A stretch of 64,000 nt of DNA, taken from positions 45,852 to 109,851 of the forward strand of contig NZ_FONY01000002.1 in NCBI RefSeq assembly GCF_900113045.1, given 5' to 3'. The notes under the pieces were generated by a model that saw only the letters and a program-made list of their open reading frames with translations, searched no databases and was not told the origin of the DNA. The position numbers were made by a program, and so were the translations under genes. The DNA comes from Thermoflexibacter ruber (GTDB taxonomy: Bacteria > Bacteroidota > Bacteroidia > Cytophagales > Thermoflexibacteraceae). Below, in pieces: positions 29,474 to 33,799 of this stretch (its first letter is position 1; each line of letters opens with the position of its first letter).

Positions 29474-29524
29474 ATTTTAAAACAAAAAACGGCTTGCTGT
29501 TTCGCATGAACAGCAAGCCGTTTT
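29474..29524 (-). terminator. Attenuator terminator of the trpGD operon
   Basis: Read on the minus strand, arms AAAACGGCTTGCTGTT and AACAGCAAGCCGTTTT (16 bp, perfect) enclose a 7-nt loop and run into TTGTTTT. It lies 28-66 nt upstream of the trpG start, inside the leader, so it must be bypassed for trpGD to be expressed. Confidence 0.88.
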
Positions 29525-29571
29525 AAAAGTATCTATTCTGATAACCTTATCCAATGGCTAACCACTCATGC
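29504..29571 (-). promoter_or_regulatory. Antiterminator pairing of the trp attenuator
   Basis: Minus-strand segment GCATGAGTGGTTAGCC (29571-29556, inside the leader ORF) pairs with GGCTTGCTGTTCATGC (29519-29504) at 15 of 16 positions, four or more as G-U. The second segment is the terminator's 5' arm plus loop, so the two structures exclude each other. A weaker upstream partner for the first segment, GGCGAAACAACT, contains the region just after the first Trp codon and could form the protecting 1:2 hairpin. Confidence 0.75.
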
Positions 29572-29627
29572 AAGCGATGCTCACACCAAAAGTTGTTTCG
29601 CCAAGTAGATAAGATTTGATGGGTCAT
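29547..29627 (-). CDS. trpL: Trp-codon leader peptide of trpGD
   Basis: A 26-residue frame: MTHQILSTWRNNFWCEHRLH then EWLAIG. Three Trp codons sit at positions 9, 14 and 22, about ten times the normal frequency. It ends 22 nt before the terminator hairpin. A ribosome stalled at codon 9 or 14 would cover the upstream pairing segment and free the antiterminator. This is classical ribosome-mediated attenuation; the peptide itself probably has no other role. The ATG is preceded by an A/G-rich stretch. Confidence 0.72.
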   Translation of the reverse strand: MTHQILSTWRNNFWCEHRLHEWLAIG

Positions 29628-29693: not shown

Positions 29694-31088
29694 TTATTCT
29701 ATGCCTCTTCCCGCTGCCCAGAGCAACTCAGCCTTTGCTTTGGCATATTTAAACTGTAACTCTATGAATTTGAGTTCTGCACTTAGAAAAGCGGTTTCCC
29801 GCGTATTGACTAAGAACAAAGAACTTTCCCCCAAAGTAAACCTTTCCTGTTCACCTGTGAGCAAAATTCGGTTGTTATTAACCATGCTTTCTTGGATTTT
29901 AAGCAAGTTTTCAAGATTTTTTAGCTCATTGTAAATCGCATTAATTTCGTTAAAAATTTCCCTATTGACCTGATTCCGTTCAAATTGGGTCTGTTGCAAT
30001 TTAATGTTGGTCTGTTGTAATTTGGCTCTTTCTTTTCTCAACAACAAGGGAAAGTAAAAGTCAATGCCGTACTTATAATTGTTTCGGAAAAAAGCCCCTT
30101 GATTACTTTCATCAAACCATGGACTCTGCCCTAAAAAATTGTAATTCAGGTTTACCACAGGCTTAAGCATTTCTATTGCTAACCTTCGCCCTACAGCTAA
30201 CTGCTTGATTTTGAAGTTAAGTTTTACTATTTCAGGGTGATTTTGGCGGGCAAAAGCCAAGAGTTCTTCTAAGCTCATTTTTATATCTACCTCGTTGAGG
30301 TTAGTGGTAGGCACGACATCGGGCTGCAATTCTATAGGGTTGCTCTGAGCGTCCCAAAGGTGATTGGACAAAATAAGGCGAGCATTAGTCAGTATTACTT
30401 CTGATTCCCTAAGAGCTACCTCCCTTTGTTGCACAATAATTTTTGCCTCTACAGAGTCTATGCCAGCCAAATCTCCCTGAATAATTCTGTCCACTACCGC
30501 CTCATAGCGTACTCTTGCCAATTCATACCCATTTTGATTGATTCGTAATTGGTGATAAGCCAAAAACCAAAACCAATAATCTTTGGTAGCTTGCAGAATC
30601 ACCTTGTTGATGGTTTTGATTCTATCTGCTTCGGCAATTTCTTTGAAATACTGGGCTTCGCGGAGTGCAGCTCGTCTTTGGTCAAAGAGCATTCCTTGCA
30701 AAATAGGTATGCTGATGCCTGCATACGCCAAACCAGAGGAAGGTACGGTACTTGAAGGATTAAGATAAACACCGCTATTTCGCTCAAAACCAGCCTTAAA
30801 GTCCACTCCTAACCACGTAGGAATTTTTACTTCGGACTGCCAAGTGTTGAAGTATTGGGTATTTTTAAATTCTTTTGCTTCGAGAGTAGAATATAATTTG
30901 GGGTCAAAGTTTCCACGTGCCAAACGGATTTCTTGGCGACCAAACTCTGAAAGTAGATTTGCCTGCCTTACAATAGGATGCCCTATCAGCAGTTGGTCAT
31001 AAAAGGCACTAATGGTAAATATTTTATCTTGACTATAAACGGGATAATAGGTAATACAAAAAAATATGAATACTATTAACTTCTTCAT
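29694..31088 (-). CDS. TolC-family outer-membrane efflux protein
   Basis: A 464-residue protein with a signal peptide ending near YSQ (about 20) and long helical OEP repeats: REAQYFKEIAEADRIKTINKVILQATKDYWFWF, RYEAVVDRIIQGDLAGIDSVEAKIIVQQREVALRESE, and the second-repeat equivalent near the C-terminus. It should form a trimeric outer-membrane/periplasmic tunnel. No inner-membrane pump or adaptor gene is adjacent, so the exporter it serves is unknown. The trp leader begins downstream on the same strand. Confidence 0.9.
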   Translation of the reverse strand: MKKLIVFIFFCITYYPVYSQDKIFTISAFYDQLLIGHPIVRQANLLSEFGRQEIRLARGNFDPKLYSTLEAKEFKNTQYFNTWQSEVKIPTWLGVDFKAGFERNSGVYLNPSSTVPSSGLAYAGISIPILQGMLFDQRRAALREAQYFKEIAEADRIKTINKVILQATKDYWFWFLAYHQLRINQNGYELARVRYEAVVDRIIQGDLAGIDSVEAKIIVQQREVALRESEVILTNARLILSNHLWDAQSNPIELQPDVVPTTNLNEVDIKMSLEELLAFARQNHPEIVKLNFKIKQLAVGRRLAIEMLKPVVNLNYNFLGQSPWFDESNQGAFFRNNYKYGIDFYFPLLLRKERAKLQQTNIKLQQTQFERNQVNREIFNEINAIYNELKNLENLLKIQESMVNNNRILLTGEQERFTLGESSLFLVNTRETAFLSAELKFIELQFKYAKAKAELLWAAGRGIE

Positions 31089-32047: not shown

Positions 32048-33799
32048 ATGAAAAAGCTATTTATTTTCTCATTTATCTTACTTCTTGCTCACGGGCTATG
32101 TGCGCAAATAACAACAAAAAGGATTAAAAATCAGCAATTAAGTCAAAGAAAAATAACTGATAATCAGTTATTTACCCCCCCCACACAAATTGATTTAAAA
32201 AAAGAAATCAATCTCAATAAACTGCTCCAAGAAGACAAAGCAGATGGAGAGAAAGGCAGCCCCCCACGCTTTGGGGTCGCTTTTGAAACAGACTTAGGTC
32301 TTTCCAATGGCAGATGGACAGAAACCCTTAATGGCAGAGTTTGGCAATTACAAATCACTTCTAAAAAAGCCTATTCTCTCAACCTCCAGTTTGACCAATT
32401 CAAATTAGCAGAAGGTGCAGAGCTATTTATCTACAATGCAGAGAAAAGTATGGAAATAGGTCCTATTACTGCTCGTGAAAATAACAAAGCAGGTGTATTT
32501 GCTACGGATTTGATTCAAGGAGAAAGTATCATCTTAGAACTCTACGAACCCTTAGAAATCAAAGAAGCAAGCATATTACATATTAATAAGGTGATTCACG
32601 CTTACAAAGATATGTTTCAAGCCATGAGCGGGGGGTTTGGTCAGTCCAGTTCTTGTAATGTCAATATTAATTGCCCCGCGGGTAATAATTGGCAACAAGA
32701 ATCGAATGCAGTAGCTATGCTTTTATTAGCTAATGGCGATAGATTCTGCTCAGGTGCATTAGTAAATAATGCAACTAATAACTGCCAAAACTTTGTTCCT
32801 AACCTATTAACTGCATTTCATTGTTTAGATAATAATGTCGATAATGTTTTGCAACAATGAGCAAGACCAAACCTTAAATTTTGTTTTCCGATTTAGATAT
32901 AGAAGTCCCTCGTGCAATGGTGGAGATGGGACAAATTTTGTTTCTTTCACAGGGGCTAATTTTATAGCAGCTTCTAATCCTACAGATTTTGCGCTCTTAC
33001 AACTTACTCAATCCCCCGAAGGCAGTACAGGCATTACCTACGCAGGTTGGTCGCGTAACAATCAGCCTACACCTAACTCGGCAGGTATTCACCACCCAAG
33101 AGGAGATGTCATGAAAATTTCTATTGATAATAATCCTGCCCAGATAGTTAATTGGCTTAATTCTATTAATACACATTGGAGAGTACAATTTGACCAAGGT
33201 ACTGTAGAACCAAGTTCCTCTGGTTCTCCATTATTTGATAACAATAGAAGAATTGTTGGGCAATTACATGGAGACCAAAATAATCGAGGAGATTGTGGAA
33301 CTTCACCCCTTCCTATGGCAGTATGCAGCTTATCCAACCTACCGCCACAGGACTTTCCTGCGGGACTTCTCAGAACATCATCTGTCGCAATACCACCCAG
33401 ATTCGCTCCACAGGCGACGCAGGAGGTACCGTCTTGGTCAGAGTCCGCAACTGCTTAGGCTGGAGTGGGTGGAAACAGATACCAGTCTCTGCCGTCAATT
33501 GTTACGACATCTTTCCCTGTGGGCGAGTTGGGCAGTTCAGTATAGTAGCTAAGAAAAAAGACGACCAAACCAACTTGCTAACAGAGGCACTGGGGGAAAG
33601 GCTTGACTTTGAAGCAAAACTCTACGACCTCAATGGCAATGTAGTCAAAGAAGGCAAAAGCAAAGGCAAGCACCGTATAGACTGGGATACTTCAGACCTC
33701 AAAGAGGGACAGTATATTCTTCGCACTGAATTTAATGGCAAGGTCAGTAGCCAACACGTACTGGTAAACTCAGTTTGCTGTGGTGGAGGGGGATGCTAA
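32048..33799 (+). pseudogene. Frameshifted secreted trypsin-like serine protease with T9SS sorting domain
   Basis: Three overlapping frames together make one protein. The first (to 32860) has a signal peptide, a prodomain-like region and the protease start with FCSGALVNN and LTAFHCLD (catalytic His). The second (from about 32840 to 33340) continues with TDFALLQL (Asp) and SSSGSPLFDNNRRIVGQLHG (Ser). The third (to 33799) carries an Ig-like segment and the C-terminal sorting domain (AKLYDLNGNVVKEGKS, LKEGQYILRTEFNGKVSSQHVLV). Two compensating frame changes separate the catalytic His from Asp and Ser. It resembles lysyl endopeptidases of gliding bacteria. It could be a decayed gene or carry two sequencing errors. 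Confidence 0.78.

Follow-up and report, generated by a model that had tools for sequence, protein, structure and literature searches.

The E. coli trp attenuator consists of a short leader with Trp codons and three pairings of the transcript, 1:2, 2:3, and 3:4. The available part of PMC11802643 describes this mechanism and, citing Neshat et al. 2014, the aroR-aroF leader of Corynebacterium glutamicum, which carries Phe-Tyr-Phe codons and belongs to a DAHP synthase gene. In Bacteroidota, the described counterpart is Bacteroid-trp (RF01692), entered in Rfam as 'Bacteroidete tryptophan peptide leader RNA'. It is marked 'y' for both RNA and cis-regulation in the accessible part of Weinberg et al. 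2010 (PMC2864571), and in Flavobacterium psychrophilum, according to the accessible text of PMC6414381, it precedes the trp operon and resembles the leader of E. coli. Within the open-licence literature on Bacteroidota (subscription papers were mostly outside our scope), attenuation is predicted in the form of Bacteroid-trp, and a measurement was not found.

The window analyzed here is a stretch of 64,000 nucleotides from Thermoflexibacter ruber (G000 in our genome sample). The trpG-trpD locus in this window carries the following features.

29627-29547, minus strand: leader peptide open reading frame, 26 codons, Trp at codons 9, 14, and 22, stop codon TAA at 29549-29547
29616-29543, minus strand: leader hairpin (strands 1:2), -29.5 kcal/mol when the leader is folded alone, also present in the whole fold
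29571-29556, minus strand: antiterminator strand (segment 2), pairing at 15 of 16 positions with 29519-29504 and containing Trp codon 22
29519-29504, minus strand: 5' arm and loop of the terminator (segment 3), the partner of the antiterminator strand, found as exact GGCTTGCTGTTC in all seven trpG leaders
29524-29486, minus strand: intrinsic terminator hairpin (3:4), 16 pairs and a 7-nt loop, -23.8 kcal/mol
29485-29479, minus strand: T-rich tail of the terminator, read from the sequence
29458-28892, minus strand: trpG, glutamine amidotransferase subunit of anthranilate synthase (PF00117, with support from relatives)
28887-27898, minus strand: trpD, anthranilate phosphoribosyltransferase (PF00591/PF02885)

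Beyond trpD, the neighboring genes encode a ribosomal L25-type protein and a ribose-phosphate pyrophosphokinase and have the opposite orientation, and upstream of the leader a gene for an outer-membrane efflux (tolC-like) protein ends at 29694 on the minus strand. Elsewhere in the window, at 32048-33799 on the plus strand, three open reading frames overlap in changing frames and, by eye, resemble parts of a single secreted protease of the trypsin-like type; the gene may be broken, or the sequence may contain errors.

The leader peptide, MTHQILSTWRNNFWCEHRLHEWLAIG, has 26 residues with W9, W14, and W22, one Phe, and no Tyr; a trpL-type attenuator has at least two Trp codons in a short leader, and here they make up 3 of 26 codons. 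Among the 581 ATG-initiated reading frames of 10-40 codons on both strands of the window, the trpG leader is the only one with at least three Trp codons. When the sequence separating trpG from the upstream gene was shuffled, such a frame appeared in 19 of 5000 sequences.

Folding of the 181-nt region on the minus strand gave -55.6 kcal/mol (z = -6.2), and none of 200 shuffled sequences folded as low. The leader hairpin pairs the early leader codons with the surroundings of the stop codon and encloses the antiterminator strand. The alternative duplex between 29571-29556 and 29519-29504, which includes several G-U pairs, has an energy of -20.5 to -20.7 kcal/mol, matched by 4 of 1000 shuffled leaders. 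The intrinsic terminator stands, as in trpL-type attenuators, between the leader and the first gene. A sequence-only reading of this DNA had already described the 26-codon frame with its three Trp codons, the 16-bp terminator with a T-run before trpG, the 15-of-16 antiterminator pairing, and an operon of trpG and trpD only, and all of these hold: coordinates and codons check, the stem has 16 pairs and a T-rich tail, the pairing is confirmed, and trpD is followed by genes in the opposite direction. Absent from that reading were the strong leader hairpin around the antiterminator strand and the location of W22 within the same strand.

The hairpin could instead be a mere terminator of the tolC-like gene, with the Trp-containing frame there by chance and the trpGD promoter located further downstream. 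The tolC-like gene lies on the same strand, the hairpin is a strong intrinsic terminator, and a sigma-70-like consensus match is present at 29442-29414, inside trpG. However, the hairpin sits about 170 nt past the tolC-like gene but only about 28 nt before trpG, the Trp-containing frame and the antiterminator recur in six relatives, and a frame with three Trp codons is as rare in shuffled gaps as stated above. We therefore regard this explanation as very improbable.

How a translating ribosome would affect these structures was modelled by folding the transcript with the covered stretch removed, the ribosome being taken, as an approximation, to cover 12 nt counted from the first base of the A-site codon. 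When the 3' arm of the terminator was absent, a ribosome placed at W9 or W14 of the window leader left the antiterminator as the modelled fold (-27.0 and -24.9 kcal/mol, respectively), whereas no antiterminator formed when it occupied the stop codon (-2.7 kcal/mol) or W22 (-5.6 kcal/mol). Applied to all seven trpG leaders, the same treatment produced the antiterminator in 7/7 for stalls at the first Trp codons and in 0/7 for a ribosome on the stop codon. In these modelled folds the antiterminator is thus freed by stalls at Trp codons and masked at the stop codon, the behavior of a trpL-type attenuator. When the complete sequence was folded, six of the seven sequences gave the terminator as the lowest-energy structure of their stalled states, so antitermination must rest on the order of synthesis, that is, on a kinetic choice. 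Such a choice is a property of classical attenuators. A stall at W22 cannot antiterminate because W22 sits inside the antiterminator, and the contrast between the modelled stalls at W9/W14 and at W22 makes W9 and W14 the likely sensors of the window leader. According to the models, a stall at W22 should terminate, and this codon, if anything, would oppose antitermination.

Taken as a ribosome-mediated transcription attenuator of the E. coli type, a reading to which we assign a probability of about 90%, the element would work as follows. When Trp-tRNA is ample, the ribosome would reach the leader stop codon and mask the antiterminator strand, allowing the terminator hairpin to form and transcription to end ahead of trpG. 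When Trp-tRNA is scarce, the ribosome would stall at W9 or W14 and open the leader hairpin; the freed 29571-29556 segment would then pair with the 5' arm of the terminator, and the polymerase would continue into trpGD. trpGD is thus very probably expressed only under Trp scarcity. From these structures we infer all three of leader translation, ribosome-polymerase coupling, and a response to tryptophan. Leader-peptide attenuation requires the ribosome and the polymerase to be in step, and the trpGD attenuator bears on whether they are coupled in Bacteroidota. The earlier identification as a Trp attenuator is supported by the reading frame, the pairings, the relatives, and the modelled stall positions, making this locus a well-supported and testable case of leader-peptide attenuation in the phylum.

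We then compared the locus among 13 genomes of the GTDB family. A Trp leader, an antiterminator, and a GGCTTGCTGTT hairpin were found directly 5' of trpG in 7 of the 13, three in the genus of the window and four in a second genus. The order of the parts is identical in all seven, and each leader has two or three Trp codons at the stall position, with the start codon and the Trp codons kept (MIKTTSYDNWLSWHPKLAV, MIKTNSYNLAWLWWQTKFSC, and MKSQGAIYFNCWFWHMGRPCEQ are examples). The best duplex between leader and terminator arm was matched by 1 to 24 of 1000 shuffles, depending on the sequence. The antiterminator overlaps the leader stop codon in the second genus, while in the window leader the frame continues past the antiterminator; Phe and Tyr codons also lie close to the Trp codons in the second genus. 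Before trpG of G039 (L017), the hairpin is kept with a poor T-run, and its strength as a terminator is doubtful.

A leader directly 5' of trpG was missing in the other 6 of 13 family genomes. G095 has an F/Y/W leader, MKNALSFGFYWFWHTAGPRERMSY, one gene upstream of trpG, with a DJ-1/PfpI gene in between; a covariance model built from the seven trpG leaders (R1, from alignment A2) matches it with E 7e-4. In G054 and G148, where trpE stands before trpG, a short frame with WW and a hairpin with a T-run lie 5' of trpE, with RF01692 E values of 0.041 and 0.0055, respectively. No leader was recognized 5' of trpG or trpE in G068, G109, and G136; G109 has a frame with two Trp codons before trpG and no visible hairpin with a T-run.

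Conservation of the Trp codons in relatives, on which the sequence-only reading had staked its case, was therefore found in seven leaders of two genera. Its remark that the Trp codons are spaced rather than tandem is correct for codons 9, 14, and 22, but the spacing is no oddity, since WFW, W..W, and W.WW are usual in this group of trpG leaders, whereas WWW is common in other trpE leaders of the phylum. The covariation that it had also looked to is borne out only weakly. Pairing is kept beyond controls in which the alignment was slid: 26 of 29 pairs between G081 and G039 (controls 10-14) and 21 of 27 between G157 and G123 (controls 11-12), with small margins for the window leader against G157 (14 of 23 aligned pairs, controls 6-12) and against G023 (13 of 21, controls 7-9). 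Double changes that keep a pair, however, are few (0-3 per comparison), with equal or higher numbers in the slid controls. Covariation was retained only in part as proof of the leader hairpin. The MAFFT alignments A1 and A2, which seem by eye to misplace the window antiterminator relative to the other sequences, were left out of the pair counts; A2 nevertheless served to build R1.

Attenuation might instead depend on a trans-acting factor (a TRAP-like protein, a T-box, or a small-molecule riboswitch) in place of the leader ribosome. The terminator/antiterminator logic would be equal, and in B. subtilis TRAP acts on trpG, which counts in its favor. However, neither in the window slice nor at the seven loci did any Rfam family reach its gathering score, and the leader has kept its start codon and Trp codons, leaving this as the least probable of the explanations considered.

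Besides the trpG leaders, R1 matched a second place in the genome of the window, at G000:C50:81333-81473 on the minus strand (L200:5334-5474, minus; E 2.5e-12), about 85 nt 5' of a gene for a DAHP synthase with a chorismate mutase domain (PF00793, PF01817). R1 found counterparts of this copy in G157:C15 and G123:C112, also before DAHP synthase. The C50 leader reads MNLMNNTYFSFYYFWYDKIV, of which ..YFSFYYFWY.. is kept in G157 and G123, and the duplexes between leader and arm at the three DAHP synthase loci were matched by 0, 0, and 2 of 1000 shuffles. Judging from its codons, the C50 leader seems suited to reading other aromatic amino acids. The DAHP synthase protein was found in 163 of 194 genomes; among the loci listed, 30 were examined, and the shared switch was present at three, all in the genus of the window, and not found at 27. 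Two of these 27 loci, L250 (8 aromatic residues of 24) and L268 (12 of 35), have an aromatic-rich short frame with no strong terminator. An exact search for GGCTTGCTGTTCA in G000 returned three occurrences, in the C50 copy, at trpGD, and at C55:135287; the last was rejected as a third attenuator, as no leader frame lies alongside.

These sister leaders bear on whether the window leader senses general slow translation or several aromatic amino acids, beyond tryptophan alone. The F/Y/W-rich leaders before DAHP synthase, the one in G095 located one gene before trpG, and the Phe and Tyr codons of the second genus all speak for such broader sensing. The window leader itself, with its three Trp codons, single Phe, and lack of Tyr, and the two or three Trp codons at the stall position in 7/7 trpG leaders speak against it, and we consider broader sensing unlikely.

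The trp genes themselves are scattered in these genomes. trpE is on a separate contig from trpG in all seven leader-bearing genomes; trpG stands apart from trpD in two of the three species of the window's genus (G157 and G123), and trpG, trpD, and trpC adjoin in the second genus. The trpE leader of G157 is MKQHHTFGKLAWWHSSKLL, and that of G123 has a single Trp. In G000, rho (named by eye) and a terminator lie upstream of trpE, no Trp leader was seen there, and the same control at this trpE is not supported. With two Trp codons, one, and none seen at L131, L132, and L003 (G157, G123, and G000), the trpE leaders form an apparent decay series in one genus. Attenuation control stays with trpG after the operon split, and the sister copy has different sensor codons. 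We tentatively propose, at somewhat less than even odds, that the trpGD element is one of a few duplicated attenuators that spread during the breakup of an ancestral trpE-G-D operon. The switch would have been kept and the leader codons rewritten, so that the copy at trpGD (and one at trpE in a relative) would read Trp and the copy at DAHP synthase/chorismate mutase would read Phe, Tyr, and Trp. If this is true, one genus would control its aromatic pathway through re-aimed copies of a single RNA switch.

Further leaders occur elsewhere in the order. Three genomes of one genus in another family (G024, G040, and G110) have a Trp attenuator followed by a tRNA-Trp(CCA) gene:

L207:2707-2920 (G024): attenuator with the tRNA-Trp(CCA) gene within about 10 nt, trpE next
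L208:4912-5125 (G040), minus strand: attenuator with the tRNA-Trp(CCA) gene within about 10 nt, trpE next
L280, 1501-1750 (G110), minus strand: attenuator with the tRNA-Trp(CCA) gene shortly after

A second tRNA-Trp, 74% identical, is located elsewhere in each of these genomes. By this arrangement, the tRNA whose charging is sensed would be placed under its own switch. Four genomes from a single family of the order (L230, L232, L233, and L234) carry, before hisG (PF01634), leaders in which 2-5 His codons stand in a row, together with a GGCTTGCC-type hairpin. Leaders with NYWCWHI and NYWHWHI precede a gene for a pyridoxal-phosphate enzyme (PF00291, trpB by eye) at L220 and L221; here too, a separated piece of the trp operon would have a Trp leader to itself.

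The relation to Bacteroid-trp was assessed with Rfam. Only sub-threshold matches were obtained, with no RF01692 match at E <= 5 in the window slice or at E <= 10 at the seven trpG loci; the best relevant rows are sub-threshold leader families such as Thr_leader, at 34.1 bits against the 55 needed (L166). RF00513 (E. coli Trp_leader) had no match in the slice or at the seven loci. A whole-genome search with RF01692 at E <= 1 left the window element unmatched and gave two rows in G000, one with E 0.34 and no clear attenuator and one with E 0.40 at the DAHP synthase copy. The window element is below the Bacteroid-trp gathering cut-off, and it does have a Trp leader and a terminator 5' of Trp biosynthesis genes in Bacteroidota, the phylum to which the nearest named TrpG relatives also assign the window's order.

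R1 matches overlap 16 of the 19 places in the order with an RF01692 E <= 0.05 (compared by eye), and all 10 R1 places tested with TrpE (L207-L216) lie just 5' of a trpE-like gene. R1 is unspecific, with a match at E <= 1 in 94 of 194 genomes, many of them plain terminators. Of 20 further R1 places, 11 lack a recognized leader and nine have one, before trpB-like genes (two), hisG (four), trpE (two), and PfpI-trpG (one). Named loci (L042-L121, the best 80 of a longer list, assigned to Bacteroidota by their titles) have trpE upstream of trpG in 76 of these 80. Where at least 250 nt were available upstream of trpE (72 loci), 60 have a short frame with WW or WxW before the gene, compared with 0/72 on the reverse strand and 2-6/72 in five rounds of shuffling. 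RF01692 was over its cut-off in 4 of 20 submitted loci with such a leader, so the coverage of these leaders by the Rfam family seems incomplete. The overlap of R1 with RF01692 and the R1 places next to trpE, together with the failed RF01692 score, indicate that the window element is a diverged form of a known kind of attenuator; it probably works like Bacteroid-trp and is probably akin to it.

In comparison with the known systems, the model built from the window's group matches the same places before trpE as Bacteroid-trp, whereas the elements matched by RF01692 precede trpE and mostly have WWW, and the window element precedes trpG and has spaced Trp codons. With E. coli trpL (RF00513), it shares a leader with Trp codons, the 1:2 hairpin, the 2:3 antiterminator, and the 3:4 terminator, but its Trp codons are not in tandem, the third of them is inside the antiterminator, and it heads trpGD, whereas trpL heads the whole operon. 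The second copy in G000 resembles C. glutamicum aroR-aroF, as far as the latter is described in the available part of its source, in being an aromatic-codon leader on a DAHP synthase gene; it differs in belonging to another phylum and in sharing its switch sequence with trpGD. What distinguishes the window element is therefore its position at the trpG-trpD part of a split operon, its spaced Trp codons, and a sister copy that appears suited to other aromatic amino acids.
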